IMG/VR virus record: IMGVR_UViG_3300042992_001387
Span: 1 to 45,952 of that record
DNA from: a virus
Length of the DNA stretch: 45,952 nucleotides
Direction: 5' to 3' (one strand)
Below, one piece after another: positions 1 to 35,500 of the stretch. The translations under genes and the position numbers were made by a program. Each line of letters opens with the position of its first letter. The stretch's first letter is position 1. Below the pieces are notes generated by a model. The model was given only the letters and a program-made list of their open reading frames with translations, was not told the DNA's origin and made no database searches.

Positions 1-117
1 GTAACCGGGTTGGCACGCTTCCTGCTGGTACGCAAACACGTAACCGGGTTGGCACGCTTCCTGCTGGTACGCAAACACGTAACCGGGTTGGCACGCTTCC
101 TGCTGGTACGCGTTCAC
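1..117. repeat. 39-bp tandem direct repeat, three copies, cut by the window edge
   Basis: Three head-to-tail copies of a 39-bp unit occupy 1-39, 40-78 and 79-117. The first two are identical over what is visible, and the third differs only near its right end (cgcgttcac instead of cgcaaacac). The unit is 13 codons long and is open on the minus strand, where it reads VFAYQQEACQPGY. There are no spacers, so this is not CRISPR. The array touches the first base of the window, so the true copy number is unknown and assembly may have stopped in the repeat. Confidence 0.95.
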
Positions 118-174
118 GTACTCCCTGAATCCATCGTTCAAGTACTCGTGTATTTTAACGACTGACACCACCAC
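1..174 (-). CDS. Partial ORF with 13-residue Cys/Tyr repeats (hypothetical)
   Basis: On the minus strand the 39-bp repeat is part of an open frame that continues off the left edge. From the possible GTG starts at 174, 171 or 168 it reads VVVSVVKIHEYLNDGFREY, then three copies of a 13-residue unit with one Cys and two Tyr each (consensus VFAYQQEACQPGY, first copy VNAYQQEACQPGY). No ATG or ribosome-binding site is present and the frame stays open further upstream, so the start is a guess. In-frame repeats of 13 codons argue for real coding, for example a repetitive virion or surface protein, but no family is recognised. Confidence 0.3.
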   Translation of the reverse strand, partial: MVVSVVKIHEYLNDGFREYVNAYQQEACQPGYVFAYQQEACQPGYVFAYQQEACQPGY

Positions 175-901: not shown

Positions 902-963
902 ATGGGATATATGGGTCTTATGGGGTACCCCATACTCCTTCCCCATACTTCCCATATAACCCA
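902..963. repeat. TATGGG/CCCATA repeat cluster with inverted symmetry
   Basis: Within 62 bp the motif TATGGG(G) and its complement CCCCATA or CCCATA occur at least six times, arranged around a GGTACC centre near 926-931 (TTATGGGG before it, CCCCATAC after it). The same motif recurs in the large dyad at 1157-1301. This looks like iterons or binding sites of a replication initiator. Confidence 0.55.
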
Positions 964-1156
964 TGGACTTTTTTTTTCTGATGCTCTATGGGGGGAGATT
1001 TGAACCTGCAACCGTTTTTCGCGCAGAACGCGCCCCCAATGTCGGTTCCGCGCTCAGGGTCACAGGGTTACAGGGCTAGCCCACCCCGATCTTGCTAGGA
1101 AATCAGAAAAAATACCTCGTCTGAATTGTACAATAAACACGACGACACCCCCCATT

Positions 1157-1301
1157 CCCCATGTACCCCATAGACCCCCATAGAAAAAAATCCTAACAAA
1201 TGGCCATTTTTGCAGCACTCAAAAACCCATGCTGCATTTTGCTGCAGAAATGGCCCCAATCGGGAAAAATTTCCTATGGGGGTCTATGGGGTTCTATGGG
1301 G
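1157..1301. repeat. 145-bp nested inverted repeat, candidate origin or cruciform
   Basis: The outer arms, 1157-1183 and 1274-1301, are reverse complements over 19 consecutive bases and more beyond, and are built from CCCCATAGA / TCTATGGGG units. The inner arms, 1202-1217 and 1240-1255, pair over 16 positions with one mismatch (GGCCATTTTTGCAGCA against TGCTGCAGAAATGGCC). Both pairs share the same centre near 1229, so they form one dyad. The loop side also holds GCTGCATTTTGCTGCA, which resembles the operator at 10658-10676. Confidence 0.75.
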
Positions 1302-1439
1302 AAATCGCCGTTTTTCGCCCAAAAAATACTACCACTCTACTTTTACTACTCGTTTAACACCTCACCGACTACCTTTACGACGAAAAATCGCGTGCGACAC
1401 TTTCTGATTTGCGGCAGCTCCCGTACCAAAAGGGCCCTC

Positions 1440-1560
1440 TAAGCCCTGAATCCATGAACCCCTGCAGCCCCATCCATGAACCCCTGATCCCACCTTCCCA
1501 ATCTCCCTGATCCCACCTGCCCGATCCACTGATCCCCCTACCCGACCCCTTGTTCCCGAT
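1440..1560. repeat. Pyrimidine-rich degenerate tandem repeats
   Basis: Two copies of ATCCATGAACCCCTG are followed by three degenerate copies of (C)CCTGATCCCACC-type units about 22-25 bases apart. The top strand is almost free of G runs, which gives strong strand asymmetry next to the dyad. No ORF of plausible composition covers it. Confidence 0.6.
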
Positions 1561-1670
1561 CTCCGGAATCATGGCAACCTGGCTTCGAGGCCATCGATCC
1601 CGACCTGCAGCCCACTCCAAAAACCCGTGCCGCCAAAGTATACTCGACTCCGAAAACCCGTTGCAAGTTC

Positions 1671-1703
1671 TCAAAATTTTAGGGCACTGCGCAAAAATTT
1701 TGA
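1671..1703. repeat. AT-rich inverted repeat upstream of the RHH gene
   Basis: TCAAAATTTT (1671-1680) and AAAATTTTGA (1694-1703) are perfect reverse complements separated by 13 bases. They lie about 37 bp upstream of the -35 box of the RHH gene at 1776. It could be an operator or an AT-rich unwinding element. The direct repeat CCGTTGCAA, also present here twice, flanks the site. Confidence 0.5.
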
Positions 1704-1739
1704 AAAAAGGCCGTTAAAAGTTAAAGACGAAAAAAACCG

Positions 1740-1767
1740 TTGCAAAGCTCCACAGCCCATGTATGCT
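1740..1767 (+). promoter_or_regulatory. Promoter of the RHH/primase operon, near-leaderless
   Basis: TTGCAA (1740-1745), a 16-base spacer, then TATGCT (1762-1767), eight bases before the ATG at 1776. Transcription would start within about two bases of the start codon. Confidence 0.5.
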
Positions 1768-1775
1768 ACCCCGCC

Positions 1776-2117
1776 ATGAATTTGCACGATCTTCTACGAC
1801 CGCCGCCGCAGATCCCGGATCTGACGCCGATCAACATGTCACTCGAGGCCCGGAGGAGGGCTCTGAAGGAAAGGGGACTGCGTTCGCGGCAGCTTGTCGT
1901 GCTGCTTGACGACGACGAGATGCGGGCCCTTCGTATGTATGCAGCCGCACGTGACCTCTGTCTCCGGGACCTGATCACCCGGATGGTGCAGGAATCCATG
2001 TCGCGCCACCAGATCATCCCGAGGCCCGCTGCCGAACCTCCCGAGCCTCCTGCCGTAATTTACGGAACACACGTCCCCCCTGCAACCTCCTCAGACCCAT
2101 CATGCCCTGCCTCGTAA
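1776..2117 (+). CDS. Ribbon-helix-helix DNA-binding protein
   Basis: A 113-residue protein. Residues about 20-72 fit a ribbon-helix-helix (Arc/CopG-type) fold: a basic segment, a short beta strand (RQLVVLLDDDE), then two helices (MRALRMYAAARD and LRDLITRMVQESM). The tail is Pro-rich and probably disordered. The ATG at 1776 is preferred to the TTG at 1740 because the latter lies in the -35 box. Its end overlaps the primase-helicase start by 16 bases, so the two are translationally coupled. It may bind the adjacent repeats as an origin-binding or autoregulatory protein; this is inferred from position. Confidence 0.6.
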   Translation: MNLHDLLRPPPQIPDLTPINMSLEARRRALKERGLRSRQLVVLLDDDEMRALRMYAAARDLCLRDLITRMVQESMSRHQIIPRPAAEPPEPPAVIYGTHVPPATSSDPSCPAS

Positions 2118-4735
2118 TCCCCCGTGTCATGTCCCTCGACGGTGTGTGGGACGTGAGCCCACTCCCGTCCATCTGCCCTGCTCACCTGAAGGGCGTCCCA
2201 AAAGCGGTACGCCGTGCATGGCAGGAGTCGCCTCCCGGCTCCCAGACCCCTGATGACTGCCTCGCCGTGCCTGTCGAGGGGATGTCTCCGACCCTGCGCG
2301 TCCGCCGGGGGTCGTCGCCCGCCGACTGCAACCCTCCCGTCCGCATCCATTCCATCTTCGTCGACATCGACTCCTACGGCTGGAGGCAGGAGCAGTTCCC
2401 CGACCTGAACCCCGACTGCCGTCCCGACGAGCTCGCGCAGGCCATCTCCGACGCCTACGCCGCACGGTACCGCGAACTGTCGGCCAAGGGGCGCTTCGGT
2501 GCAGGCATCACTCCATTTGCCCCTGACTGGGTGTACCGGACCCCCGGCGACGGTGTCCGCCTCGTCTGGGAGTTCGACGTGCCTGTCGAAGTGCCTCAGG
2601 GCTTCTCACCCGACCGCGAAGCCAATCTCAAGGTCCCATTCGACTTCGTCTCCCGGTTCTGGCAGGAGTTCACAGGGATACAGGGTCTCGCCTTCGGCCG
2701 TCAGTTCCGCGCCCGCGGAGTCCACAAGCCGTGGCTGCGTCAGGCTCTGTCGAGCGGGCTGGCCGATGACCTCGCCCCCGACGAGTGCGGCATGCGGGCG
2801 ACCCAGCCCTATGCCCTTGTGACCTCCGAACGCTGGTCCCCTGTACCCAAGCCTCCAGGGACCCCGGCCATTCCCGACATTCAGATGATCGCCGACGCCG
2901 CGGCCGCCAGCGTCTTCCGGACCATGTACCGTGTCGCCGACTCTCTGGGCGACGACCGCACGTATCAGGACGTCGGGGCCATGCTCGAGAACAAGTTCGG
3001 TCACCTGCTGCCGGGTATCGGGACCATGGGTATCGGCTGCAAGATGGGCCACTTCATGGACTCGCAGTTCAACCCCCTGCCTGCCGTCAGCACGCGCAAC
3101 CCGAGAGCCTGTGAAATCCGCGACCGGGGCATCGCCGTCCACTCGACGTCGGGCACCCTTGTCAACGGGTTTTACACCTGGGTCCAGATCCTGCATGAGG
3201 AGCTCGAAGTCCGGCAGTCGCAGAGCTTCACCGAGATTGCTTCGCGGTACTGCGTCAACTTCGCGTCGGCTACTGGGTCCGTTCCCATCCGTGTACGTCC
3301 GGGGTACTTCTGGAAGCTCGACGGCGAGTGGCTGCGGGAAATCAGCGAAGACACCCTCCGGCACGAGCTGGCGACCGAGTGGAAGCTCTCGCCCAAGCGC
3401 AAGGACGGCGGGGCGTCGCAGGTCGACTGCGCCATCCACTGCATCGAGAAGACCCGGCAGGTCATCTCCGAGGTCCGTCTGCCCTTCGTCGAGTGGGATC
3501 AGGGAGCCATCCGCCCATTTGCCCGTGAAGGGGATCCCAATGCCTATCTGGAGCACAACCTTCTCTACCGCAAGTTCCGCATCGTCGACCCCCACCCTGC
3601 ACCCGTGAACCCCGATGCCGACTTTCCGACCATCGCCAACTGGCTTCGGGGATTCACAGACGGGCACGCGCTCAACTACCTACTTGCATGGCTGCGTGAG
3701 CCATACATCCTCGCATCCCGAAAGGAGACGGCACGGGGTCAGGTCGCCCTGATTCTCGGACCCAAGAACAGCGGGAAGTCCTTCCTGTTCGAGGAGATCC
3801 TCTACCCCATGTTCCACGGCGGGCGTCATCCGGCCGACAGCCCGAGCGGCGGCCCATCTGCTGACTTCCTCATCACCGGGTCGCCGTGGACCGGAGCCAT
3901 TGGCAACCACTTCGCCCTCGTCATCGATGACATCGGCGAAGCTGTCCGCGAGTCCGATCAGGCTGATGCCCGTCTGAGGTTCTCGACAGCCATCAAGACG
4001 ATCTCCGCGTCGGGTCTCGTCCAGAGCAACACAAAATACGGTGCCCAGCAGACCATCTCCTTCCAGGGGCGCATCCTGTTTCTGGGCAACGAGGAGGACT
4101 CCGCAGCCATGATCCCGGCCAGCTCCGAGTCCCTTCTGGACAAGTTCATGCTCTTCAGGGCTCATGGAATCCCGTCAGAGCGTCAGCTCTCGCCCGCCGA
4201 GGCCCGCGACCGCTTCCGCGCCGAGCTGCCGTACTTCCTGTCGTGGCTGCGTGCGTGGACTCCGCCCGCCGAGTGCATCCCTCAGACCTCGGGCACTGTC
4301 GACAAGTTCGGCGTCCGGGCGTATCAGGACCCCGAGCTCCTCGCTCACTCGCGCTCCGGCGGCCGTAACGCCTCCCTCATGGGCTGGCTCGAGGACTTCC
4401 GGGTCAACCTCCTGACCGTCAACAAGGGAAACGGCGTGCCTTCACTCTCCATGAGACTCGATTCCCTGCACACGCAGCTTCACGGCTATCTGACCACCAT
4501 CGGGGCTCTCGTCAATCCACGCGACTTTCCATCAGCGCATGGATTTTCGATCGCTCTGGGCGTCATCATGCGGCAGCAGGGAGCCGAGCTTCCGTGGCTG
4601 ACTGTCTCGACCGACGACGCTGGCCGGAGGACGGCAACCCTGAGCCTTGACCCCTCGATACCGTCGCGTGCTGCCCCGTCGGCCGCCGTCACTGCCAATG
4701 GAACCCCTGTCGCCCTGCTGCCATGTCCACTTTGA
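2102..4735 (+). CDS. Primase-helicase (AEP-like primase with superfamily 3 helicase)
   Basis: An 877-residue replication protein. The N-terminal part looks like an archaeo-eukaryotic-type primase: FVDIDS (catalytic-type D88 and D90) and, further on, YRTPGDGVRLVWEF. The C-terminal part is a D5/P4-type superfamily 3 helicase: Walker A GPKNSGKS at about 553-560, Walker B ALVIDDIGEA, and a sensor-type segment GRILFLGNEED. It would unwind and prime phage DNA. An alternative start is the ATG at 2129, but 2102 overlaps the upstream gene in the style of this operon. The last 13 bases overlap the next gene, and the C-terminus ends in PCPL. The helicase call is firm; the primase call is slightly less so. 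Confidence 0.85.
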   Translation: MPCLVIPRVMSLDGVWDVSPLPSICPAHLKGVPKAVRRAWQESPPGSQTPDDCLAVPVEGMSPTLRVRRGSSPADCNPPVRIHSIFVDIDSYGWRQEQFPDLNPDCRPDELAQAISDAYAARYRELSAKGRFGAGITPFAPDWVYRTPGDGVRLVWEFDVPVEVPQGFSPDREANLKVPFDFVSRFWQEFTGIQGLAFGRQFRARGVHKPWLRQALSSGLADDLAPDECGMRATQPYALVTSERWSPVPKPPGTPAIPDIQMIADAAAASVFRTMYRVADSLGDDRTYQDVGAMLENKFGHLLPGIGTMGIGCKMGHFMDSQFNPLPAVSTRNPRACEIRDRGIAVHSTSGTLVNGFYTWVQILHEELEVRQSQSFTEIASRYCVNFASATGSVPIRVRPGYFWKLDGEWLREISEDTLRHELATEWKLSPKRKDGGASQVDCAIHCIEKTRQVISEVRLPFVEWDQGAIRPFAREGDPNAYLEHNLLYRKFRIVDPHPAPVNPDADFPTIANWLRGFTDGHALNYLLAWLREPYILASRKETARGQVALILGPKNSGKSFLFEEILYPMFHGGRHPADSPSGGPSADFLITGSPWTGAIGNHFALVIDDIGEAVRESDQADARLRFSTAIKTISASGLVQSNTKYGAQQTISFQGRILFLGNEEDSAAMIPASSESLLDKFMLFRAHGIPSERQLSPAEARDRFRAELPYFLSWLRAWTPPAECIPQTSGTVDKFGVRAYQDPELLAHSRSGGRNASLMGWLEDFRVNLLTVNKGNGVPSLSMRLDSLHTQLHGYLTTIGALVNPRDFPSAHGFSIALGVIMRQQGAELPWLTVSTDDAGRRTATLSLDPSIPSRAAPSAAVTANGTPVALLPCPL

Positions 4736-5145
4736 ATTGCACCGAATCTGAAGTAACTCTCCCAATCGTAGAAACATCGCGTTTCACAAAGTTTCTGGAA
4801 ATCACGGAAGAAGAAAACGCAAGAACTTACTTGAATCACGTACTTCCTTACATAAGTACGGAAGAAATAAGAGATGTCGCTTTAGATTATCTTCTTTCTG
4901 GATCACTAGATCTCGAATCGTATTCAGTTGTGAATTATCAAATTTTAGATATGCTAAAAATAAATTTAGCTTTAGACAGGCAAGTTCTAAACTTTTTGCT
5001 GTTTTTACGGGCGCGAGCCACGTATGACTCTAACGAACTCAGCCAATACGGGCTGCTTATGCATATATCTGCTAGAACTGAAGATCTCGAGTTTTTCTAT
5101 GATTTTCTGCTTCAACTAAAATACCCTCTGCCATGTCCCTTGTAA
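4723..5145 (+). CDS. Tandem small-protein family, member 1 (unknown function)
   Basis: A 140-residue acidic, helix-rich protein of no recognised family. Its central motif, LPYISTEEIRDVALDYLLSG (residues about 41-60), is echoed in the six genes that follow: a hydrophobic helix ending in LP, about ten residues, then V.DYL..G. It overlaps the primase-helicase end by 13 bases. The next gene overlaps its own end in an almost identical way (CTGCCATGTCC at both junctions, both upstream proteins ending PCPL). Base composition is clearly more AT-rich than the upstream gene, which suggests a different origin. Confidence 0.75.
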   Translation: MSTLNCTESEVTLPIVETSRFTKFLEITEEENARTYLNHVLPYISTEEIRDVALDYLLSGSLDLESYSVVNYQILDMLKINLALDRQVLNFLLFLRARATYDSNELSQYGLLMHISARTEDLEFFYDFLLQLKYPLPCPL

Positions 5146-5534
5146 GCGCCATCACAGACCTCACAGACCTCTTAGCCAGAGCCCGAAGCTCCACCATCAG
5201 AAACTTCATGTATGTCACGGAGACGGAACGGCTTATTCCATATCTGGCAGACCTTCTGCCAAGCATTCAGCAGGAAAGGCTTGCAACGGCCGTTACGGAT
5301 TTCTGCATGACTGGGTGTTTTCCAGAAGGGTACTACCTTCCATTGATGGCCCCGCACACCGATGTAGACCACCTCGCCCACACTGTGCTGAATCTCGCGG
5401 CTGTACGTCAAAGAGCTGCTTTCGATAACAGAGACCCCATTGATCTCGCGTGTATGCTGTACGGAAGGCTCGAAGCGCTGGACACAATCCACAAGATGAT
5501 GAAAACCATGAAACCCGAAGAATATGAAATTTGA
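5133..5534 (+). CDS. Tandem small-protein family, member 2 (unknown function)
   Basis: A 133-residue protein. Residues about 34-60 carry the family pattern (YLADLLPSIQQERLATAVTD followed by FCMTGCFPEGYY). The rest is predicted to be helical with no membrane segment or metal motif. It overlaps member 1 by 13 bases and member 3 by 11 bases, so expression is coupled. It has no Shine-Dalgarno sequence. Function is unknown; small overlapping accessory genes like these are often host-takeover or anti-defence factors, which is only an inference. Confidence 0.75.
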   Translation: MSLVSAITDLTDLLARARSSTIRNFMYVTETERLIPYLADLLPSIQQERLATAVTDFCMTGCFPEGYYLPLMAPHTDVDHLAHTVLNLAAVRQRAAFDNRDPIDLACMLYGRLEALDTIHKMMKTMKPEEYEI

Positions 5535-5940
5535 CCCTACAATACACCATTCCGCGATCCCCACGTATACTTGTGCTGGAGGGTACACCGTGAACGGGGG
5601 AGACCCTGCAGAGGCCGACGAAATAGTCCGAATTCACAGGAAGCTCATTGATCACGAGTACATGCAACCGTTCTTCATGGCCATCCTTCCCCAGCTCACC
5701 GACGACCGTCAGATCGAAATGGTCACCGACTACCTGGCTACAGGAGGGAAGTTTTGTCCTAAACCTGGATGGCTCGTGCAATCCGACCTAGTGTCCAGAT
5801 ACGGGATAATTCAAAACATATTGGACATAATCTTCTTCAAGGACCGGAAAAACATATGGAACACACGCCCATCAGTGGTCGAAGGTTACCGTAAATGCCT
5901 TTTGTTCGTGCAACAAACCCTAAGGAATAGCCAGAAATGA
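5524..5940 (+). CDS. Tandem small-protein family, member 3 (unknown function)
   Basis: A 138-residue protein with the clearest copy of the shared motif: FFMAILPQLTDDRQIEMVTD, then YLATGGKFCPKPGWL (residues about 50-85). After this comes a hydrophobic segment (GIIQNILDIIFF) that may be part of a helical core rather than a membrane span. The start overlaps member 2 by 11 bases and the stop overlaps member 4 by ATGA. Confidence 0.75.
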   Translation: MKFDPTIHHSAIPTYTCAGGYTVNGGDPAEADEIVRIHRKLIDHEYMQPFFMAILPQLTDDRQIEMVTDYLATGGKFCPKPGWLVQSDLVSRYGIIQNILDIIFFKDRKNIWNTRPSVVEGYRKCLLFVQQTLRNSQK

Positions 5941-6353
5941 ACTTAAAAAGTGCGTACATCAGTGTACACAGGTATATGTTCTACGGACTTGCGTATGAGG
6001 AAGCCCTTGAGCTTGGGGAGACCATGGATTACATCCTCGACGAAGACAGGGCGAAAAAGTTCGTTCTTGCCATACTGTCCGAGCTTCCCGGAAACATGGC
6101 CGACCATTTTGTAGACCCCATTTTGTCCTGGGTGTGTGGATGCGAACTAACGCTGATATGGAAATATTCACTAGAAGCGTGGCTTCCGTATGATGACTTT
6201 TGCATAGAGCACCAATTATTAGCTATTTGTTTTTATTCATATTTCATTCAAGAAAATAATTTTATTCCTTTTGGTGAGTATGAAAGCCGAAAACTTCAAC
6301 GCTTTACCAGAGAAATTAAGAAAACCATGAAACGATTGATCCAAGATGACTAA
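5937..6353 (+). CDS. Tandem small-protein family, member 4 (unknown function)
   Basis: A 138-residue protein beginning in an ATGA overlap with member 3. The family pattern is weaker here (KKFVLAILSELPGNMADHFV followed by DPILSWVCGCELTL). The protein is rich in aromatic residues, and its C-terminus is basic (SRKLQRFTREIKKTMKRLI). AT content rises through this gene. No known domain is recognised. Confidence 0.7.
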   Translation: MNLKSAYISVHRYMFYGLAYEEALELGETMDYILDEDRAKKFVLAILSELPGNMADHFVDPILSWVCGCELTLIWKYSLEAWLPYDDFCIEHQLLAICFYSYFIQENNFIPFGEYESRKLQRFTREIKKTMKRLIQDD

Positions 6354-6969
6354 AAAATACGATCACAGCTTAATAAGGGTGCCAATTAGTTTTTCTTATG
6401 ACGCCAGAAGCATTATTGCTGAAGGAAGAACAATATTGAGTCGGGAATTTAGAAGTAAGATTGCTACTATATTACTTACTAAGTTGCAAGGTAAGCATTT
6501 TGACGCTCTCACGGACTCTTTGATGACTGATCCTGCCATAAAAGGTCCGCATAATGATTTTTATCCAGCCAACACTCCTTATGAACAAGTAACTAATTTT
6601 TTGTTTAATGCGGGATTTAATGAGGAAAGATATATAGAAGCAGTCGATAATTTTGAGTTCTGCATAAATGTTTATCCGCAAAATATTATTGATCATTTAA
6701 GTACTACTCGTTATAGTCTTAGCGAAGATTCAACAGTTCGTACGATACAAAGTGTTGTTTTTTTGTCTGGAATTTTGTTTTCTTTTGAGCAAAGTATTGA
6801 CTACTTTGGTGAGTGGGACATACCTGACGTACGGTTCCTAGAAAACGTCGCTGATAAATTCCGTTTAGAGTTTACAGCCAACATGCGAAATTCCTATATA
6901 CCACCCTATGATCCAGAAAAAGCAAAGAGCTTCCTGCAAAACCGTCCCGGCCGCCCCGATCATCGCTGA
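6346..6969 (+). CDS. Tandem small-protein family, member 5 (longest, AT-rich)
   Basis: A 207-residue protein, the longest of the array and the most AT-rich. Near residues 35-55 it reads SKIATILLTKLQGKHFDALT then DSLMTDPAI, a loose match to the shared helix-LP-helix pattern. It overlaps member 4 by eight bases. Base composition returns abruptly to GC-rich around 6930, inside its last codons, so the C-terminal tail (FLQNRPGRPDHR) may have been fused or shifted by recombination at that point. Function unknown. Confidence 0.65.
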   Translation: MTKKYDHSLIRVPISFSYDARSIIAEGRTILSREFRSKIATILLTKLQGKHFDALTDSLMTDPAIKGPHNDFYPANTPYEQVTNFLFNAGFNEERYIEAVDNFEFCINVYPQNIIDHLSTTRYSLSEDSTVRTIQSVVFLSGILFSFEQSIDYFGEWDIPDVRFLENVADKFRLEFTANMRNSYIPPYDPEKAKSFLQNRPGRPDHR

Positions 6970-7324
6970 CGCCCGTCAGGCCATGGCGGAGATCATCCCA
7001 TTCCTCCATGATCAAACCGTCCTTGATTTTGCCCTGCGTTTCGCCATGGGGGAGGACTTCAGTCCAGAGCACGCACGCACATACACTCGCCCTGCGACGC
7101 GCACCATCTTGAGTCTACCGAAGTTCTTCCAGTTCCGTCAGGACAAACCCCCTTGCCGAGTCCTCCGCGGCATCTACGAGTGTGGGTACGACGGCAGCCC
7201 CAACTACCAACTCCACCCAGAATCCGCAAAAGCATTATGTCGATCCATCGGGAAACTCAGGAGCGCCGCCCAAAACGAGGTCGCCCAAGCGAAAAAACTC
7301 CAGAAAAACTCTGCTTCTTCCTGA
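6908..7324 (+). CDS. Tandem small-protein family, member 6 (unknown function)
   Basis: A 138-residue protein if read from the ATG at 6908, or 113 residues from the ATG at 6983. The motif region, AEIIPFLHDQTVLDFALRFA then MGEDFSPEHA, matches the family. The longer start gives the N-terminal segment seen in the other members but a 62-base overlap with member 5. The C-terminus is Lys/Ala-rich. It is GC-rich, unlike members 1-5. The frame overlaps member 7 by 88 bases. Confidence 0.6.
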   Translation: MIQKKQRASCKTVPAAPIIADARQAMAEIIPFLHDQTVLDFALRFAMGEDFSPEHARTYTRPATRTILSLPKFFQFRQDKPPCRVLRGIYECGYDGSPNYQLHPESAKALCRSIGKLRSAAQNEVAQAKKLQKNSASS

Positions 7325-7662
7325 CAAAAGCACTGCCGTACACACGTCACCAGATGGTCAAGGCGTGGCTGAAAGAGGTACTTGCAAACCCGAACGAGTA
7401 CCCTCCTGATCCATCCACGTACTGCCCAGCGTTCGCCCGCTTCGTCGAGAATACCAACCCCCGCTGGGGTGAGCAGCTCGACAAGGCCACTGTCATGCTG
7501 GCCTACTGGTGGATCCGCGGGGATTATACCCGAGCAAACGCTGCCCTCCATACTTTCCGGCACCTGCTGTCCCTTGCCGAGGTCGGATCTGGGGTCCCCT
7601 TCGAGGAGTCCATCATCGCTTCGTCGAGGAAGCCCCGCCAGCGAGCACGGACAATGCCGTAG
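7237..7662 (+). CDS. Tandem small-protein family, member 7 (unknown function)
   Basis: A 141-residue protein from the ATG at 7237; an upstream in-frame ATG at 7153 would add an unlikely Pro/Arg-rich extension. A basic N-terminus (RRPKRGRPSEK) precedes the family motif LTKALPYTRHQMVKAWLKEV, then LANPNEYPPD. A Trp/Tyr-rich middle (AYWWIRGDYTRAN) may form the core. The 3' end overlaps the convergent resolvase gene by 50 bases. It closes the array. Confidence 0.65.
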   Translation: MSIHRETQERRPKRGRPSEKTPEKLCFFLTKALPYTRHQMVKAWLKEVLANPNEYPPDPSTYCPAFARFVENTNPRWGEQLDKATVMLAYWWIRGDYTRANAALHTFRHLLSLAEVGSGVPFEESIIASSRKPRQRARTMP

Positions 7663-8080
7663 CCGCAATTAGCACGGCGTCGCAGGTCCCGAGCGTGATC
7701 TTCGTGTCCGGGAACATCGATCGGGCTACCGCAAGAAGCGCCCTCTTGTGCTCTGCCTTCTGCTTGTGACCGGGCAGCTTAGTGCCTAGCTTCTGCTGCC
7801 ATGTACGCGGCTCGACGTAGCGAACCTTGCCACCGAACCCGCAGAGACGCCCTTCCCACCATCCAAGATTCTGGCCGAACGAAAACGCTGACACTACGCC
7901 CTGCCCAGGGAAAGCATGAACGCGCTCCATCATGATGGTGTGAATGTCGTGAGACGACCACTCGCGGAGCTTATAGTCCATGTCCTCCGGGGACCTGAAC
8001 GGATGCACGGCAATCAGGTCGCCTGAGTCTGAGACGAGAGCAGCGCCCCCGTTCTTGCCGGGATCAATTCCGAGGATCAT
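7613..8080 (-). CDS. RuvC-like Holliday junction resolvase
   Basis: A 155-residue RNase H-fold nuclease of the RuvC type, expected to cut branched DNA before packaging or during recombination. Visible signatures: GIDPGKNGG at the N-terminus (Asp6), MMERVHAFPGQGVVSAFSFG with acidic Glu52, and CDAVLIA near the C-terminus (Asp134), in the usual order and spacing. It is the last gene of a leftward three-gene operon, and its start overlaps the preceding gene by 17 bases. The 3' end overlaps the convergent rightward gene by 50 bases. Confidence 0.85.
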   Translation of the reverse strand: MILGIDPGKNGGAALVSDSGDLIAVHPFRSPEDMDYKLREWSSHDIHTIMMERVHAFPGQGVVSAFSFGQNLGWWEGRLCGFGGKVRYVEPRTWQQKLGTKLPGHKQKAEHKRALLAVARSMFPDTKITLGTCDAVLIAATALSVLAGGASSTKR

Positions 8081-8559: not shown

Positions 8560-10149
8560 ATGTCTTCCCTGCCTTCCTACACCGTCCGCACCGCGACCTC
8601 TCTGAACACCGCGCTCGCCCGGTCGACAGGCACGCGAATTGTCCTCGGAGCGTCCATTCCCGTCAGCACGGAGATCACCATCCCTGACCGCCACACCATT
8701 GTCACAGGGGGATATGGGTTCCAGAAACAAGGCTCCGGCCGGATCAATTTTCACGGGACTCTGGAGGATGAACACCGTCAGGTCTTCTTCGGGTTCAACC
8801 CCGGCGACGTCACCGGGCTGTTCCGGTCCCAGGTGGCGCGACCTGTCTGGTGGGGCGCGTATGCACGGACGGCGCATCTTCCGGCGAGCAACGCAGACAC
8901 CCGCGACGATATCGGGATCAACTGTGCCATTCAGTCGGTTCCCGTCGACAATGCCATCGGTCGCAAAGTTGTTCTTGACACAGGAGCCTACCATGTAGGT
9001 CGCCCCATCGACATCTCCGGCCGAAACATCCTGCTGGAAGGTGCGGGCCCCTCACGATCGCACATCTCCACAACCTCGTTCTGGACGACCGACTGGAAAA
9101 CAGACCCGATGTACGGGGCGAGTTCCCATGGAGCTGTGATCTGGGTGGGATCAAGCTCGGCTGCGTCCGTGTCCAGTTTCAACTCCAGTGTACGCGGGGT
9201 CCATGTCAACGGGTACTACGCCGCCACGGCCGTTGCCAACGCGTCCAAGCGAGTGAGTGGGATCTCGTCTTATGGCTGGATGGAAGAGCACACTGCCATT
9301 GAGGATGTCACCATTGAGTACTTCAGTGGGTACGGTGTCGGTTGCACTTCCAAACCGGGAATGCTCCGTGTGATGAACGGCTTTGCCCTCCGCAAGTTCT
9401 GGATCACCGGAGGATTGCGTGTCGACTGCTGCCCAATCGCCATTGGGGAACACAGTGCCGCGGCTTCTGTACGGGACGGCACCATCGACATGAATCCGGG
9501 AATCGGCGATCAGGCCCGCCCCGTCGTGCGCACGGCCATCTGGGCGCAGGGGCAGCATACAATCATCGAAAACATTCACGTTGAGTGGGTTCGGAATGCT
9601 GTTCTGGTTCGGGGTGGGGTAACCGGACTCGAGCCTCAAGGGCAGTCTGTGGAAATCCGCGGAGTCGATCTACTGTATGGAGTTGACCACGACATGGCGC
9701 AGACTGGGAGGAGTAACCCTGTTACGACCACTCAGCTCCCCGTGTATTCACCGACCTCAACAGATTATGATGACATCTTCAAATGGAGTACGGTTCTGGT
9801 AATTGCTGGAAGTTATTCTGACTTAAACCCTTACTCTCTGATTGGGCGAAACGGAACAAATACAGGAGTCGCGGAGCCGATCGCGTACCACCCTCGCGTA
9901 GTGGCGAGCTCCTTGAGCGGAAATCTGATGAAATACCTTGTCCGTGATTACGGTATGGGGCAGCACATTCAAGCGTGGAGAACGGAGCAACTGGGAGCGC
10001 ACTACGGCATGATTGCCCGCTACGTCAGGTCGAATGTCTATGCAACGGGAGCCACGGCGGTTCCGTATTGGGAACCTTCAGTTCCAGGCGGCCCTCGACC
10101 GATAGGCACCTTCCCGACCGACAAGACCTACGTGGAGAAGGTCATCTGA
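8560..10149 (+). CDS. Tailspike-like protein with pectate-lyase beta-helix
   Basis: A 529-residue protein. Residues about 95-130 match the entry motif of pectate-lyase-3 tailspikes (WWGAYARTAHLPAS, then a DTRDDIGINCAIQSV segment, the phage version of GA.gDg.tDDt.Aiq.Ai). The following 250 residues have the repeating beta-strand pattern of a right-handed beta-helix (GRNILLEGAG, VRGVHVNGYY, AIEDVTIEYFSG, ALRKFWITGG, TIIENIHVEWVRNAVLV). It probably binds or degrades a host surface polysaccharide. It lies among replication genes, far from the other virion genes, directly after the divergent RHH operon and six bases before the next gene. Confidence 0.75.
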   Translation: MSSLPSYTVRTATSLNTALARSTGTRIVLGASIPVSTEITIPDRHTIVTGGYGFQKQGSGRINFHGTLEDEHRQVFFGFNPGDVTGLFRSQVARPVWWGAYARTAHLPASNADTRDDIGINCAIQSVPVDNAIGRKVVLDTGAYHVGRPIDISGRNILLEGAGPSRSHISTTSFWTTDWKTDPMYGASSHGAVIWVGSSSAASVSSFNSSVRGVHVNGYYAATAVANASKRVSGISSYGWMEEHTAIEDVTIEYFSGYGVGCTSKPGMLRVMNGFALRKFWITGGLRVDCCPIAIGEHSAAASVRDGTIDMNPGIGDQARPVVRTAIWAQGQHTIIENIHVEWVRNAVLVRGGVTGLEPQGQSVEIRGVDLLYGVDHDMAQTGRSNPVTTTQLPVYSPTSTDYDDIFKWSTVLVIAGSYSDLNPYSLIGRNGTNTGVAEPIAYHPRVVASSLSGNLMKYLVRDYGMGQHIQAWRTEQLGAHYGMIARYVRSNVYATGATAVPYWEPSVPGGPRPIGTFPTDKTYVEKVI

Positions 10150-10155: not shown

Positions 10156-10647
10156 ATGAACAAGTACCCGATCAACTTCCGATCCAAGGACGATGTACCC
10201 CAAGACGTGTGGGCTGCTGCCCGAGACGCTGTAGCCTGCGGAGTGCCAATCGAAACCATCGCCCGCCGGGCGGGAATCTACAAGACCTGGGTCGAGGAGC
10301 GGGCTGCGGCCGAAGACTGGCTCACGCAGGAGAAGCGAGACAGGATCCTGCAGATGTACGAGCAGGACCGCCCCGACAAAGTGACGGAGATCGTCGAGGA
10401 TCTGGCCCTTGCATCGGCCGCCGTGGGCTCAGACCGGGCCCTGATTCACCGATCCCGGATTGCCTCGCTCGCGAATCAGAAGCTCCTCGAATCCGAGCGG
10501 ATCATTCAGGCCCCCAAGACGTGGAAGGACCTGCAGATTCTCGACAACATGGCCCGGAAAGCGTTTGGTCTTGACGAGGACGCGAAGCCCGCGGCGATGA
10601 TTCAGCTCAACCTGCTGAACACCGGGGCTACTGTCGAAGATGCTTGA
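10156..10647 (+). CDS. HTH DNA-binding protein, candidate small terminase subunit
   Basis: A 163-residue protein. The N-terminal third has a helix-turn-helix (ACGVPIETIARRAGIYKTWV) followed by RAAAEDW, as in phage small terminases and transposase-like HTH proteins. The C-terminal part (APKTWKDLQILDNMARKAFG) resembles the tail of small terminase subunits. It would recognise the packaging site for the large terminase encoded at 17.3 kb. The separation from that gene and the lack of a decisive signature keep this tentative. The promoter of the next gene overlaps its stop codon. Confidence 0.5.
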   Translation: MNKYPINFRSKDDVPQDVWAAARDAVACGVPIETIARRAGIYKTWVEERAAAEDWLTQEKRDRILQMYEQDRPDKVTEIVEDLALASAAVGSDRALIHRSRIASLANQKLLESERIIQAPKTWKDLQILDNMARKAFGLDEDAKPAAMIQLNLLNTGATVEDA

Positions 10648-10678: not shown

Positions 10679-10831
10679 ATGGCACAAAAACCGTTCCCAA
10701 AACTCAAGCAGGTGCGCATCAGCGTCATGCTGACCCGTGCGCAGCACGACCGTCTCAAGGAGCTCGCGAAGCTCAACAACCGCTCTGCCACGAAGCAGGC
10801 GTCCACTCTTCTGGCACCACATCTCGTCTGA
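10679..10831 (+). CDS. Small ribbon-helix-helix regulator
   Basis: A 50-residue RHH protein: basic N-terminus, strand KQVRISVML, helix TRAQHDRLKELAKL, turn NNRSA, helix TKQASTLLAPHL. The ATG at 10679 is chosen because it starts the domain and sits at the predicted transcription start; the ATG at 10640 would lie upstream of the promoter. It is followed after seven bases by the helicase-nuclease gene, so it may repress this operon through the palindrome at 10658-10676. Confidence 0.7.
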   Translation: MAQKPFPKLKQVRISVMLTRAQHDRLKELAKLNNRSATKQASTLLAPHLV

Positions 10832-10838
10832 TCGACGA

Positions 10839-13301
10839 ATGAAGACCCTGTTTCCGATTCAGGCTACCTCGCGGGATGCCCTGCTGGCGGCCATGAAGAA
10901 GCATGGCGCGGCGCTGTGCGGCACTGACACCGGGGGCGGCAAGACACTCACGGCTGTCGAAGTGTGCCGGGCGCTTGGAGCCAAGCCGCTGGTTGTCGCT
11001 CCCAAGGCCGTGTTGACTTCCTGGCGACGCGAATTCGAGGCGCAGGGGGTACCGTTCCTCGGCATCGTCGGGTACGAGAAGCTCCGCGCCGGGAACACCG
11101 AGTGGCTGAAGAAGGACGGAGCATCATTCAAATGGAGGCTCCCGGAAGGCACTGTCGTCATCTGGGATGAGGTCCATCGGTGTAAGTCCTACAAGAGCCG
11201 CAACTCAGCAATGCTGGCGACGTGCAAGGCCCAGAAGATGAGGCCCTTCATGCTGTCTGCTACACCGTTCAACGACCCCACGGAGATGAAAGCTCTGGGG
11301 TTCTGTCTGGGCTTGCACAAGCATCACGATTTCTTCCGGTGGGCGCTCGAGAACGGTTGTCAGAGGGACAACTGGAACCGTCTGGTGTTCAACAAAGCGC
11401 ACAAGGACAAGCTCGAAGCGATCACTAAAATGATCTACCCCGACCGTGGGCACTTCCTGACCCGCGAGGACCTCGGCCCGTACTTCGCCGAGTGCGCTGT
11501 GTCGTGGGACCCTGTCGACTTCGATGAAAGCGCAATCCGCAACGCGTACGCCGAAGTGTCAGACCAGCTGGAAACGCTGGCCGAGCGAATCGCCATGGAC
11601 GGCACTGAGCCCATTGGCCTTGTAGAGCTGCTCCGTGCGCGGCAGAAAGTGGAACTCATCAAGGTGCCCATCATCTCGGACATGATTCAGGACGGACTTG
11701 ACAACGGAATGTCAGTGTTCGTGGCGCTCAACTTCGTAGGATCACTCGAAGCCCTGAAGCTCAAATACCCTGATGCCGCGGTCATCTGCGGAGGGCAGAG
11801 TGCGACTGAAAGGCAGAGGAACATCGACGCTTTTCAGGAGAACCGCACGCACGTCTGCCTTGCCAACATTGCTGCTGGCGGTGTTGGAGTAAGCCTGCAT
11901 GACGTTGATGGTAAGCATCCGCGCCTCGCTCTCATCAGCCCGTCGTTCAGCGCCATTGATCTCAAACAGGCGCTCGGACGCGTTGACCGCGTAGGGGCGA
12001 AAACACCCTCGGTTCAACGCATCCTTGTAGCCGCTGGAACCGTCGAGGAGAAAATTTGTGCGATTCTGAAGCAAAAACTTGATCTTTTCGCGTTGACAAA
12101 GCAGGAATCTGACGTAGTTGTGCAGCACCAACCGATAACGATTCAAGATTCAGTGATTTCTACTCCAGAAGCTCCAGCAGGCAATAACGGGCACGCCAAG
12201 TTCTCGCCGTCACAGCTCAAGTACTTCAAGTCGTGCCCCGGCTACGGCCCGAACAACACGACCAATGAAGCAGCAGAAGCAGGCACTCGCATCCACGAAG
12301 CTCTCGAGCTCGACGATGACTCCAAGCTGCAGAGTGAATGGGAACTCTACATGGCGGGCAAGTGCCGCGAAGTGATCCTCGCGATTATTCGCAAGCACAA
12401 GCTGCAGAACGCACAGGATCTCCGCGAAGTCCGTCTCGCCATCAACGCAGGATCCTTCTCCACGTACGGTACATGCGACCGTCTGTTCATCGACGGTGAT
12501 AGGGCGATTGCGGCTGACTACAAGACCGGGCGCGGCAAGATCGATGACGCCGAGGAAAACTGGCAGTGCTTCGCGTACACCGCCGGAGTCTTCCAGAAGT
12601 TCCCACACATTCAGACTGTCGACTTCTACTTCATCACCCCGCAGCGCGATGAAGTCAGCTATGCCAAGTTTCACCGCCTGCAGCTCTCCCGCCTTTTGCG
12701 TGACATCGACAATGTCCTTGAGGGTGCAACCAAGGCGCATGCGTACTGGCAGAACGGTAAAGCGCCTCCGATCGAGATGCTGCACCAGAACTCGGACGTT
12801 TGCCGCTACTGCCGATTCGCAGACCAGTGTCCCAAGAACAAGGTGCTGGCCATCGAAGTCGCCAAGAAGTATGCGCCCGACATCCTTCTTCCTGACGCTA
12901 TCCATGGTTCCGACAACGACGACCCGGAGCAGATTGCGGCGATGATGAAGATCATCCCGATCGTCGAAGCGTGGGCTGGCGGAGTGAAGAAGAAAGCCCG
13001 GTACATGGCCATCGAGCAGGGCATCCAGCTTCCCGGATACGAAATCACGACCCGCGCAGGCAAGCGCACAATCACCGATGCCAAGGCGGCGTTCGAGCTG
13101 GCTGTCGCGAGGGGCGTGACCCCGGAACAATTCATCTCGGCCATCAAGGCCGTGCCCGTCGGAGACTACGAGGACCTCATCTCCTCGACCGCTCCGCGTG
13201 GAACCAAGCAGACCGTCATCGAGTCCGTGATGATGGATCTGTATGCCCGAGGAGGTCTGAAGATCTCCGAGGAGTCCCAGAGTTTGACGGAGGTCAAGTG
13301 A
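10839..13301 (+). CDS. SNF2-type helicase fused to a Cas4/RecB-like Fe-S nuclease
   Basis: An 820-residue two-part protein. Residues 1-430 are a superfamily 2 helicase: GTDTGGGKT (28-36, Walker A), WDEVHRC (109-115, DEVH box), LSATPFND (motif III) and ALGRVDRVG (motif VI). Residues about 455-820 are a PD-(D/E)XK nuclease of the Cas4/AddB/DUF2800 kind: SPSQLKYFKSCPG with Cys466, AADYKTG (Asp560, Lys562), and CRYCRFADQC (Cys655, Cys658, Cys664), four cysteines that would hold an iron-sulfur cluster. In many phages these two activities are separate neighbouring genes. It probably acts in end processing, recombination or replication. The ATG at 10839 begins the helicase domain. Confidence 0.85.
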   Translation: MKTLFPIQATSRDALLAAMKKHGAALCGTDTGGGKTLTAVEVCRALGAKPLVVAPKAVLTSWRREFEAQGVPFLGIVGYEKLRAGNTEWLKKDGASFKWRLPEGTVVIWDEVHRCKSYKSRNSAMLATCKAQKMRPFMLSATPFNDPTEMKALGFCLGLHKHHDFFRWALENGCQRDNWNRLVFNKAHKDKLEAITKMIYPDRGHFLTREDLGPYFAECAVSWDPVDFDESAIRNAYAEVSDQLETLAERIAMDGTEPIGLVELLRARQKVELIKVPIISDMIQDGLDNGMSVFVALNFVGSLEALKLKYPDAAVICGGQSATERQRNIDAFQENRTHVCLANIAAGGVGVSLHDVDGKHPRLALISPSFSAIDLKQALGRVDRVGAKTPSVQRILVAAGTVEEKICAILKQKLDLFALTKQESDVVVQHQPITIQDSVISTPEAPAGNNGHAKFSPSQLKYFKSCPGYGPNNTTNEAAEAGTRIHEALELDDDSKLQSEWELYMAGKCREVILAIIRKHKLQNAQDLREVRLAINAGSFSTYGTCDRLFIDGDRAIAADYKTGRGKIDDAEENWQCFAYTAGVFQKFPHIQTVDFYFITPQRDEVSYAKFHRLQLSRLLRDIDNVLEGATKAHAYWQNGKAPPIEMLHQNSDVCRYCRFADQCPKNKVLAIEVAKKYAPDILLPDAIHGSDNDDPEQIAAMMKIIPIVEAWAGGVKKKARYMAIEQGIQLPGYEITTRAGKRTITDAKAAFELAVARGVTPEQFISAIKAVPVGDYEDLISSTAPRGTKQTVIESVMMDLYARGGLKISEESQSLTEVK

Positions 13302-24948: not shown

Positions 24949-25740
24949 TCACTGAGCAGGCTTCTTCCTCTTCCGGGCCTGCTTTGCTTCGCTGAACTCA
25001 GCGAGCATCTCGTAGTCCCGCGGGCATTTGAGCATTGACAGGGACTTCAGGAAAGCCAGCAGGTGCTCGAATTTGTCCTTGTTCTTGACAGCCGAGTGCC
25101 CCCGATCCTCGAGCACAAAGCCATCTTTCCCATGGACGTGAATCAGTTGCGGATGGCCCCATGCTGTCAGGCGTCTTCCGATCCGGTACACGTCAAGGTA
25201 GAAATTTTTCCTCGTTCCCCCACACTCCTCTGCCACCGAAGACATGACCGGGAACCCAGGATTCCGTGCAGCCACTTCGAGAAGAGCCCACATCGACGAC
25301 ATCATGGGGACCTGATACCCGTCCACGAACACACGCCGGAGTCCGATGTCGAGCGTCAGGTACGAGTACGTCAGGATCCTTCGGCTGCGCTCGCGCCACT
25401 TTCCGGCACACGAGCGGCACCGGACGAGGATCTCTCGGATCGAGTACGGTGGCGACATGGCGTCGTCGTACCCGTTCTGCAGCATGGCGATCCTGTCGGC
25501 CACTTCCGGCCCCGCGAGACCAAGAAGCCCTGATTCCCTGATCCCGAGAATCCTGTCGCTGATGCGCCGTTCCGAGTCGATGGTGTCACGGATTATGGCG
25601 GCCATGTACCGATTGGTATCCAGAGCCTCCATGGCCCCGGCGACCGTGCTGGCCCAGTCCATGACCAGACCTTCATTTACCGCAGCCTGAGTGATCGCGT
25701 GACCGATGTCGAGACGGTCCTCAACCAGCAGAGCTCTCAT
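24949..25740 (-). CDS. OmpR/CtrA-like response regulator with degenerate receiver domain
   Basis: A 263-residue protein with the plan of a two-component response regulator. The receiver domain begins MRALLVEDRL (acidic pair Glu7, Asp8) and ends NGYDDAMSPPYSIREI, the equivalent of GADDYLxKPFSxxEL, but the conserved Lys is replaced by Pro97. The phosphoacceptor region YMAAIIRDTID has Arg at the expected position, with Asp52 one residue later. A winged-helix output domain follows (LDIGLRRVFVDGYQVPM, LLEVAARNPGFPV, FYLDVYRIGRRL, IHVHGKDGFVLE). A Lys-rich tail of about 50 residues is extra. It is probably a DNA-binding regulator acting without phosphorylation. It overlaps the DUF3310 gene start region by 20 bases in one leftward operon. 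CtrA-like versus other OmpR members cannot be settled by eye. Confidence 0.75.
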   Translation of the reverse strand: MRALLVEDRLDIGHAITQAAVNEGLVMDWASTVAGAMEALDTNRYMAAIIRDTIDSERRISDRILGIRESGLLGLAGPEVADRIAMLQNGYDDAMSPPYSIREILVRCRSCAGKWRERSRRILTYSYLTLDIGLRRVFVDGYQVPMMSSMWALLEVAARNPGFPVMSSVAEECGGTRKNFYLDVYRIGRRLTAWGHPQLIHVHGKDGFVLEDRGHSAVKNKDKFEHLLAFLKSLSMLKCPRDYEMLAEFSEAKQARKRKKPAQ

Positions 25741-25963
25741 CTGTATTCTCGGCGGCGGGGTACTCCCATTCGAGGAGCAGGTTGAGGTAGTGCAGGGCCT
25801 TGAGGAGGTCTTCCTTTCCGTTCTTGGCCCGGTGCCGGGACACGTACTTGATGACGTTGCCCTCGCACCATCCGAGGCGGTTGCGGTGAATGAATTCCGA
25901 TGGCTGGATGGCCAGATCCCTGTAATGGGATCCGCCGACTTGGATGTCCGACGATTGCAGCAT
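25721..25963 (-). CDS. DUF3310 protein
   Basis: An 80-residue protein with the hallmark blocks of this phage family: VGGSHYRDLAIQPSEFI, CEGNVIKYVSRHRAKNG and EDLLKALHYLNLLLE. The family is sometimes annotated as nucleotide kinase-like, but its biochemical role is not established. The ATG at 25963 starts directly before the conserved block. Its own divergent promoter lies at 25973-26001, and the response regulator gene follows with a 20-base overlap. Confidence 0.9.
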   Translation of the reverse strand: MLQSSDIQVGGSHYRDLAIQPSEFIHRNRLGWCEGNVIKYVSRHRAKNGKEDLLKALHYLNLLLEWEYPAAENTDESSAG

Positions 25964-25972
25964 AGTGGCAGG

Positions 25973-26001
25973 ACCATGGCCAGCGCAAATGCGGTTGTCA
26001 A
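25973..26001 (-). promoter_or_regulatory. Leftward near-leaderless promoter for DUF3310 and the response regulator
   Basis: On the minus strand TTGACA (25996-26001), 17 bases, CATGGT (25973-25978), then nine bases to the ATG at 25963. The -35 box overlaps the -35-like TTGTCA of the rightward promoter, so the two promoters are back to back and mutually exclusive in part. Confidence 0.5.
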
Positions 26002-26022
26002 TCACCGTGCTGAGTATATTCT
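25995..26022 (+). promoter_or_regulatory. Rightward promoter for the HNH gene
   Basis: TTGTCA (25995-26000) with TATTCT (26017-26022) at 16 bases, or TATATT (26015-26020) at 14. The ATG at 26030 follows 7-9 bases later, again near-leaderless. Confidence 0.45.
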
Positions 26023-26029
26023 GCCGTCC

Positions 26030-26263
26030 ATGTCCCGCGACTACCGGAAGGAGTACGATTCCTATCATGCTTCGCCTGAACAGGTTGCCCGCCGTTCCGC
26101 CCGGAACAAGGCGCGTCGCCTCATGCAGAAGAGGTACGGCAAGGAGGCTCTGCGCGGTAAGGATGTCGACCACAAGAATTTCAACGCCAGCGACAACGGG
26201 AACGGGAATCTGAGGCTCATGGACTGGCGCAAGAACCGGAGCAGGCAGCCCAAACGCTCGTAA
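26030..26263 (+). CDS. Small HNH-type nuclease-like protein
   Basis: A 77-residue basic protein of a common podovirus family: RDYRKEYDSYHASPEQVARR, a run of Arg/Lys-rich helix, then GKDVDHKNFNASDNGNGNLR and KNRSRQ. The DVDHKN...N...NLR pattern is the HNH metal finger core, though the family may not be an active nuclease. The ATG at 26030 matches the usual start (M-S/A-RDYKKEY); an upstream in-frame ATG at 25976 is in the promoter. The next gene begins three bases after its stop. Confidence 0.75.
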   Translation: MSRDYRKEYDSYHASPEQVARRSARNKARRLMQKRYGKEALRGKDVDHKNFNASDNGNGNLRLMDWRKNRSRQPKRS

Positions 26264-32590: not shown

Positions 32591-35500
32591 ATGTCGCTAT
32601 TTCAGGAGCTTGAGCAAATCGAGGCAACAGACGCCTACCGCAATCTGACTCCTGCGGAGCGGCAGACGGTACTCGACAACTGGTCGGCTCAGTCCACCGG
32701 AGATCCTGAAAAAGACGAAGTCCGCAAGAACGTCGCTGAGGAAGCTCTCAGCCAGTCCAACGCACGCATGCGTGCCCGGATGCCCGTCGACCCTGTGTCC
32801 GGGCAGCTCAAGCAGCCGCCACTGTCGCTCGCGAACATCGCGTCCTCTGAAGTGTGGACGGCGGTGCTCGACGATCCGGAGGCAAAGCGCACCATCCTGT
32901 CCAACTGGCGCAACAGTCTCGACACCGAGCTCGAAGGAGCTGACCTCGACAGGAAAACTTCCGAGCGAATCACGGCAGAAGCCGAGCTCGCCCGCATTGC
33001 GGCCGACGAGACTGAAGGAGATCTCGACTCTGCACAGCAGAAAGTTGGGGATTTCAGCAGGGCGTACACGGCACGGCTTCAAGCCATCGCCGCGAACCCC
33101 GGCATGAAGCAGGGCCGCGGAGTGTTCAAGGACGGCAAGTTTGTCGAAGATCCTGACGGGGAATTCGAGGTCAACCCGGCCATGGCGCTGCTTCCCGAAG
33201 ATCAGTACTCCGCCTATGTCGATCAGATCCCGGACCTCAAGCCGCTCGAACGCGCACGGCTCAAGGGCACGTACGGTGCCCGTCAGCAGGTAGCCTACGG
33301 CAGGTACTACCAACAGCTCTCCGCAGCCAAGCAGCAGAAGGTCGCCGAGGCCGAAGTTGTCCGAGGGCTTGGTGGAATGGTCCTGCCGGGGCAAGCACCC
33401 GTCGGGAAAAAGGAAGAAGTGACCATCGCAGGAAAAGCGTACGATTTCGACGAAGTCTCGGAGATTGCCATCACCCCGCAGCGCGAAGTCCAGTACGGCG
33501 AGAAGGGGGGATCTCAGGAAGCTCTCTTCTCTCCAGACGAGGGAGTGCGCAAGGAAGCCCGTAAGCGCACGGCTCTGCAGTTTGCCAACGCCGTTCTGCC
33601 TGCCTCCGGTGACATGGAGCTTGCCGACATCATCCGCAAGAACCCGGAAGGCCCTGAAGCCGCAGCCCTTGTCGACCGTCACGTAGACGCCCTGAAGAGC
33701 ACGCTCTGGGTCCCCGCGTCCCGCATCAAGGACAACCTGTGGGAGAAGGCCCGCGTCATGAAGAACGGCGAGGTTGTCGTCAACCCGGAGTGGGCGCGGA
33801 CGGCACCCACGGACATCGACAAAGTGGCGGAGCAGCTCGGGGTGCCGGAGAAGGCCGATGACATCAGGGAGCAGGTCGAAGCCACGCATCAGGCGTACGC
33901 CGCGAGGATTGTCGCCAACGCCGACTCCGGAGTACTTCCGTGGCGCTTCCAGTCGTTCGTTGCCGAGCAGCGGGCCAAAGGCGTCACCGATCCCGTCGAA
34001 ATCCTTGCGGCCCACGACAAGGAGTACGGGTACACGGATGACATCATGATGGGACTGCGAGCCGCCGGGCGGCAGGCCGCGGACATCGGGACATTTGCAC
34101 TTGGTGTCGTTTCTACACTGGCTCCAGACAGCAAGGGGCTGCAGCAGCTTGTTGCTGACCGCGCCGCTGCGTCCGCCGAGGAAGAGGCGGCCTACGCGGA
34201 GCTGTCCGGCAAGAACAAGAGTGAGATCGTTCAGGGGATTGCGTCGGAATTGCCGTGGCTTGTCATGGGCCTTGGAGCATCTGTCGGAGCTTCCGCCGCC
34301 CGCCGCGCTGCCATGGCATCTGCTGCACGTAACCCGGCAAGGCTGGCTGCCGCGAACGCGGCGCTGCAGGAGTCCATCCGCACGGCTTCTGCTGCCCCGC
34401 TTCTGGCCAGCAGCCCTGTTCAGGCCGTCCTCGAATCCGGGCGCACGGCGATGCGCACGTACTTCGGAGTGCAGGCCGGGCGCTCGGCAGGCGGGATGTA
34501 CACCAACGCCTACAACCAGCTGCTCCAGAAGAGCCTCGACGCGGGGATGAACATGGATCAGGCGCAGCGATCGGCTACGGTCAACGCCGTCGTGCCTGCG
34601 GCCGCTGCCGGGCTCACCACGGCAGTCCTGATGAAGCTCATGCCGGGAGGCACTGAGACAGCACTCGAGAAGCTCGCCGCCAGCACAACCATCGGGTCGA
34701 TCCGCAAGAAGTTCGGCGAGAAGGCTCTGTCCAACGCGTTTTCCAGCGGAGGCTTTGCGAAGAAGGCTTTCGATGCTCTGTCGACTGCAATCCCTGTCAA
34801 GTCCCTGACGAACGGGCTGAAGAATTTTGTTGGTGCGGCTGCCACTGGAGGCGCAAAAGAAGCTGTCGAAGAAGCAGCCGACGAGGCTTTTCAGGCAGCC
34901 CTCATGTCGCAGTTTGATGACCGCATGACGCTGCAGTCCGCGATGGAGCAGGTCGTGAAGGCTGGCTTCCTCGGGGGCATCATCGGTGGAGGCATGTCGG
35001 CTCTGAGCACGCTTTCAACCAACAGGAAGATTGCGCAGGAGATCCGTGCGGCCAAGGAGGGCAAGTCGCCGCTGGCGGAGAAAGCGGACAATCTCGATCA
35101 GGAAGGAGACACCGCGACGGCTGAAGCGCTCCGCAATGCTGCGGGCGGCTCGCCCCTTGTCGATCTGCTCAACAGCACCATTGGAACTACGTTCCGCAGC
35201 GAGACGATCCCCGGCACCGACGAGGTCAACGAGGATGCTGTGCTCTCGGAGTCTCTCGACAAGGCCAAGGCCGACGCGCTCGAGAAGGAGATCAACGAGA
35301 AGTACAAGAACGTCAGCGTCATGCAGGAACCCATCCTCGATCCCAAAGGCGCGGAAACCGGGAAGTTCCGTCTCCGTGTCGCCATGGAGGCGGCTCCGGA
35401 AGAAGAGGAAGAGGCTGCCCCGACACCGGAAGAGGATGCAGGGGTTCAGCGGGCTGCGCAGATGGGTGCGCTCAAACCAAAGCTCGAAGGCTTTTTCGAC

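Follow-up and report, generated by a model that had tools for sequence, protein, structure and literature searches.

What are seven small, overlapping genes doing immediately behind the primase-helicase-like gene of an uncultured phage, and do they descend from one ancestor? The genes lie at positions 4723–7662 of a 45,952-base stretch of DNA, IMG/VR record IMGVR_UViG_3300042992_001387 (this whole stretch is called the window here). Our favoured answer, to which we give about even weight, is that they form a tandem array of one undescribed four-helix family whose copies have diverged to bind different host targets, most likely in host takeover or anti-defence. Below we take in turn the make-up of the array, the kinship and predicted structure of its members, their divergence, and the functions that could account for them.

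Organization of the gene array

A preliminary description, made from the sequence alone, had reported seven overlapping open reading frames (ORFs) in this region, and these are present as claimed, all on the plus strand; we call them g1 through g7. They overlap one another head to tail by 13, 11, 4, 8, 62 and 88 bases, taking the ATG at 7237 as the start of g7 (its reading frame is open further back, to a TTG at 7153), and the start of g1 overlaps the upstream primase-helicase-like gene by 13 bases. Base composition is uneven along the array: g1, g4 and g5 have 38–41% GC, and g6 and g7 have 57–59%, compared with about 59% for the phage overall.

One related phage record, IMGVR_UViG_3300034357_000735 (24,581 bases; G001 below), was found through the window's terminase (74% identity); from the resolvase gene onwards the two sequences are collinear. 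Its first 5.6 kb contain, in order, the end of a primase gene, 11 overlapping ORFs, two terminal ORFs and a resolvase gene. Each of the 11 ORFs encodes 90–130 amino acids and carries a form of the motif LLARxLPhI-x6-hDxVTxFLVTG; the two terminal ORFs are larger and degenerate, and the array as a whole spans G001 902–5064 (its members are labelled with an r). The family profile picks out eleven sites in this relative (E ≤ 2e-20), although these same sequences helped to build that profile. The array there has a uniform GC content of 52–62%, and the AT-rich contrast of g1, g4 and g5 is not seen in it. The preliminary description had proposed that related genomes be compared for copy number, and copy number does differ: there are seven genes in the window and 11 plus two in the sole relative that covers the locus.

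Evidence on whether the genes form one family

The preliminary description went further and suggested that all seven genes belong to one diverged tandem family, each with a shared LP...DYL..G pattern. Blastp within the set connects g1 (4723–5145, 140 amino acids, core ARTYLNHVLPYISTEEIRDVALDYLLSG) with g2 (5133–5534, 133 amino acids, core LIPYLADLLPSIQQERLATAVTDFCMTG) at E = 6e-6 and g2 with g3 (5524–5940, 138 amino acids, core MQPFFMAILPQLTDDRQIEMVTDYLATG) at E = 1e-3; the g1–g3 match is weak, and none of g4 through g7 was linked to another member of the window set in this way. A more sensitive comparison used a profile built solely from the 11 paralogues of the relative, with 1000 shuffled sequences and segments of other phage proteins as controls. 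This profile scored g1 at 24.0, g2 at 14.5, g3 at 12.8, g7 at 7.5 and g6 at 4.9 bits, and left g4 and g5 at background. No shuffle in 1000 reached the scores of g1, g2, g3 or g7, and two in 1000 reached that of g6; no window of other phage proteins scored as high as g1, g2 or g3. A second score for g6, 9.7 bits, was reached by no shuffle in 1000 and equalled by one of 138 control segments. By sequence comparison, then, g1, g2 and g3 are clearly paralogues.

The genes g6 (6908–7324, 138 amino acids, ARQAMAEIIPFLHDQTVLDFALRFAMG) and g7 (7237–7662, 141 amino acids, the terminal member) very probably belong to the family as well. Their hhalign scores of 13.2 and 12.7, respectively, compare with a maximum of 6.2 among 73 control segments from the same phage (we treat this as supporting evidence only), and an ungapped position-specific scoring matrix of the 30-residue core gave p = 0.001 for g6, p = 0.004 for g7 and p between 0.03 and 0.05 for g5, with no signal for g4. 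Direct blastp matches to the relative's array are found for g2 (with r4, E = 1e-5) and for g7 (with r12, E = 2e-4), the latter pair being ortholog-like.

The remaining two genes are more difficult. In g4 (5937–6353, 138 amino acids, ILSELPGNMADHFVDPILSWVCG) the pattern can be aligned if a one-residue gap is allowed, and g5 (6346–6969, 207 amino acids, RSKIATILLTKLQGKHFDALTDSLMTD) has neither the LP nor the final G. However, g4 is tied to g2 by duplication, since a 14-nucleotide direct repeat, GAAAACCATGAAAC, occurs near the 3' ends of both genes (5501–5514 and 6320–6333, plus strand) with a spacing of 819 that equals the distance from stop to stop; a longest repeat of this length or more arose in 3 of 200 shuffles, before its register is taken into account. 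A similar repeat, CTGCCATGTCC, stands at the junction of the primase gene with the start of g1 (4718–4728) and again at the start of g2 (5128–5138), both on the plus strand, and its spacing of 410 is the g1–g2 start-to-start distance. A structure model of g4, for which the family alignment served as input, has low confidence (predicted local distance difference test score, pLDDT, of 65) and helices at residues 36–48, 55–66, 90–106 and 117–137, placed around LP (49–50) and CG as in the rest of the family; it is not independent evidence, because family rows sat in its alignment. We regard g4 as a likely, highly diverged member. The FDALTDSLMTD of g5 resembles RDAVTDFLVTG of r4, and together with its matrix score this likeness is at most suggestive of a member in which LP was lost. 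The shared pattern thus exceeds chance in g1–g3 and, more weakly, in g6 and g7, and the family comprises five, probably six, of the genes; "seven in one family" is too strong a statement.

Predicted structure

Structure models cover r5 and g4. The AlphaFold2 model of r5, made from a 14-member alignment, has a mean pLDDT of 91.3 and a predicted template modelling score of 0.82, and it consists of four helices (residues 3–17, 21–33, 49–70 and 73–99). The r5 model is thus a confident one, and from it we predict a four-helix fold for the family. LP terminates helix 1 and VTG terminates helix 2, and the motif is therefore explained. A Foldseek search with the r5 model returned no significant match (best E of 0.59 in PDB and 0.49 in BFVD), and sequence searches found no solved relative of the family. 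The Foldseek matches to NRG1 CC-R, endophilin BAR and ferritins were rejected as generic helical resemblances (E > 0.4, root mean square deviation mostly > 10 Å).

Distribution

The statement that no known family is recognisable here is borne out: no member scanned matches a family of Pfam, PHROGs, NCBIfam or PADLOC below E of about 0.01 (for g5 and g7 the scan covered Pfam and PHROGs). Searches of GenBank phages gave no match or chance matches, those of PLSDB plasmids chance matches at E of about 0.4 or above, and those of GTDB genome contigs, at peptide-pattern sensitivity, 50 matches with none related. Peptide patterns in IMG/VR recovered the known relative only, and five matches to DNA patterns there were due to chance. 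When 81 related phage records that have the terminase or polymerase in common were searched with the profile, G001 was positive and the other 80 were not. Many of these 80 are fragments, and several closer relatives (L049, L059 and L068) stop short of the array's position; the true frequency of the family may therefore be higher than these searches suggest. A scan of related loci for further tandem small paralogues found no array comparable with this one. Adjoining ORFs with 58–67% mutual identity do occur in two contigs of related phages, L077 (18913–20592, minus strand) and L130 (6564–7867); these are probably repeats within a longer gene. A terminase search of genome contigs for a host of the lineage found nothing. 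The array proteins make up a family not described before, although its type, diverged paralogues in tandem within an early operon of a phage, can be recognised.

Divergence of the copies

Within the array the N-terminal hairpin is conserved, whereas the C-terminal half is near background and does not vary together with it. Among the relative's paralogues the 28-residue core has a mean identity of 38%, reaching 71%, and outside it identity is 30%, compared with 26% for shuffled sequence. Over 91 pairs the similarity of the core and that of the C-terminal half are uncorrelated (rho 0.04). The copies r4 and r5 have 20 of 28 core residues in common and C-terminal halves no more alike than expected by chance, and r4 and r8 have a C-terminal half in common. 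Comparisons of this type fit either swapping of C-terminal halves or much faster change there. Despite the deep divergence, with core identity averaging 38%, all copies (7 and 13) are intact ORFs, which speaks against decay.

In a tree of the paralogues most forks are unresolved, except that g7 and r12, near-terminal genes of their respective arrays, pair with support of 96/88 on long branches. The two lineages therefore probably separated when an array with two or more members already existed, and expansion followed in one or both of them. The polymerases of the window and the relative are 57% identical and their helicase-nucleases 60%; the arrays vary far more than this in copy number and sequence.

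In our favoured account the array was built up by successive duplications within the replication operon of an uncultured tailed phage lineage, new copies presumably arising through unequal recombination between adjoining genes. The genes g1 to g7 would be translated in succession from the message of the primase gene, each overlap of a stop with the next start leading on to the following gene; such coupling is our inference, since Shine-Dalgarno-like sequences precede few genes of the window phage.

Possible functions

In the favoured reading, that of small early proteins whose copies have diverged to bind different host targets, the N-terminal hairpin (helix 1 to LP, helix 2 to VTG) would keep either the fold or a shared partner constant. 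Helices 3 and 4, which form the poorly conserved C-terminal half, would diverge so that different copies could bind different host proteins. The isoelectric points of the copies, which range from 4.4 to 10.9, are as expected of different partners. A role in an arms race or in host takeover is plausible from the location, the small size, the intact copies and the fast divergence, and host or defence proteins are the most likely targets by analogy with known systems. It is well established that phages can respond by amplifying the segment that carries a small anti-defence gene, as with tifA in T4 under toxIN selection (PMC9391042), where recombination multiplies one small gene and the phage gains by inhibiting a defence protein of its host; the head-to-tail copies of the array likewise carry short direct repeats in register with gene boundaries. 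The T4 copies, however, are recent and laboratory-made, whereas those of the array are old, deeply diverged, overlapping and found in two related natural phages (the comparison with TifA here concerns the mode of amplification). In T6 the endonuclease SegB promotes amplification of anti-defence loci, a route past immunity (PMC13096335); this resembles the array in being the amplification of a locus, but no homing endonuclease is seen inside the array, and an HNH-like gene lies far off at 25706–26263.

Several points weigh against this reading. No target is indicated, because no member matches a characterised protein or fold. The family's traits (small proteins of 90–207 amino acids, encoded in the primase operon, variable between lineages and present in two of the related records examined) are not specific to anti-defence, and the location suits a replication accessory role equally well. 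The low conservation of the C-terminal half may be ordinary fast drift of weakly constrained helices. Comparison of the arrays rests on a single relative; within the window g4 is supported indirectly, through its repeat and a low-confidence model, and g5 is a possible member at most.

A more elaborate form of the same idea, which we consider possible but doubtful, is that the phages maintain a repertoire in which a constant N-terminal hairpin carries a swappable, hypervariable C-terminal half, enlarged and reshuffled by recombination into lineage-specific sets of small binders directed against different host defence proteins.

Among the alternatives, that of replication accessory factors survives best, though we judge it rather unlikely: the paralogues would be subunits that assemble with one another or with the primase-helicase, like a hetero-oligomeric clamp or loader. 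In both phages the array comes after the primase gene, and in the window it does so directly, with an overlap; genes for a resolvase, a helicase-nuclease and a polymerase are close by, and helical bundles frequently oligomerise. A core subunit would be expected to correspond one-to-one between the two phages, but g7 and r12 are the sole ortholog pair, and the family is missing from related phages that have the same polymerase and terminase. A replication role is less likely because the array is more variable than the replication genes and absent from those phages.

It is less probable again that dosage or neutral expansion explains the array, with tandem duplicates made by recombination and drifting without separate functions. 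A duplication process is indeed shown by the short repeats, whose spacing matches the gene boundaries, and C-terminal similarity is near background; yet every copy is intact, neutral copies this distant would be expected to carry stops or to have been deleted, and the core motif is retained in 14 copies. Small, variable, multi-copy phage proteins can also act in superinfection exclusion or immunity against related phages and not against the host, a role that we consider improbable here, given that hydropathy predicts no membrane segments (grand average of hydropathy, GRAVY, −0.7 to 0.05), the genes sit within a replication operon, and neither an integrase nor a repressor came to light. Finally, that these are unrelated small genes with a coincidental LP...DYL..G likeness, as the control-level profile scores of g4 and g5 and the lack of a family assignment for any member might suggest, is very improbable, being contradicted for g1–g3 by their recognition with the relative's independent profile and opposed by the presence of the same array at the same locus in that phage.

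Neighbouring genes and other features of the window

The gene upstream of the array (2102–4735, plus strand, 877 amino acids) is the first large gene of the operon. We call its product a likely primase-helicase and no more than that because its match to Pfam DUF5906 (E = 7e-5) falls under the curated cut-off. This weak similarity to the DUF5906 / D5-like primase-helicases belongs to the upstream neighbour, and the array proteins are unlinked to DUF5906. Relatives of the gene occur in related phages at 23–25% identity, and its 3' end is syntenic in G001 (33% identity over 131 residues). On the other side, convergent with the array, lies a gene for a RuvC-like Holliday junction resolvase (7613–8080, minus strand; PHROG 1770, E = 1e-21), which forms the right-hand syntenic border; the array of the relative is flanked by a resolvase gene 51% identical to it.

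An ORF of 529 amino acids (8560–10149, plus strand) with no Pfam or PHROGs match separates the minus-strand resolvase cluster from a 163-codon gene at 10156. Because the relative keeps about 20 bases in its place (L037 3643–3664), this ORF was either inserted in the window or lost in the relative. At 10737–13301 (plus strand) a single protein of 854 amino acids joins an SNF2-type helicase to a PHROG 69 exonuclease; the pair is likewise one ORF in L029 and L033 and two shorter adjoining ORFs in L004 and L008. A single ORF of 3809 residues (32591–44020, plus strand) occupies a quarter of the window and has no Pfam or PHROGs match. At the start of the contig a 39-base unit, GTAACCGGGTTGGCACGCTTCCTGCTGGTACGCAAACAC, is repeated in tandem about three times (1–120, plus strand), possibly the site where the assembly broke.

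Implications

Arrays of up to 13 diverged paralogues in a single phage operon preserve a record, made in nature, of duplication that recurred under selection. Should the copies differ in target, a set of novel inhibitors of bacterial proteins would be available from this one locus, and comparison of the arrays among related phages would show how such a repertoire grows.

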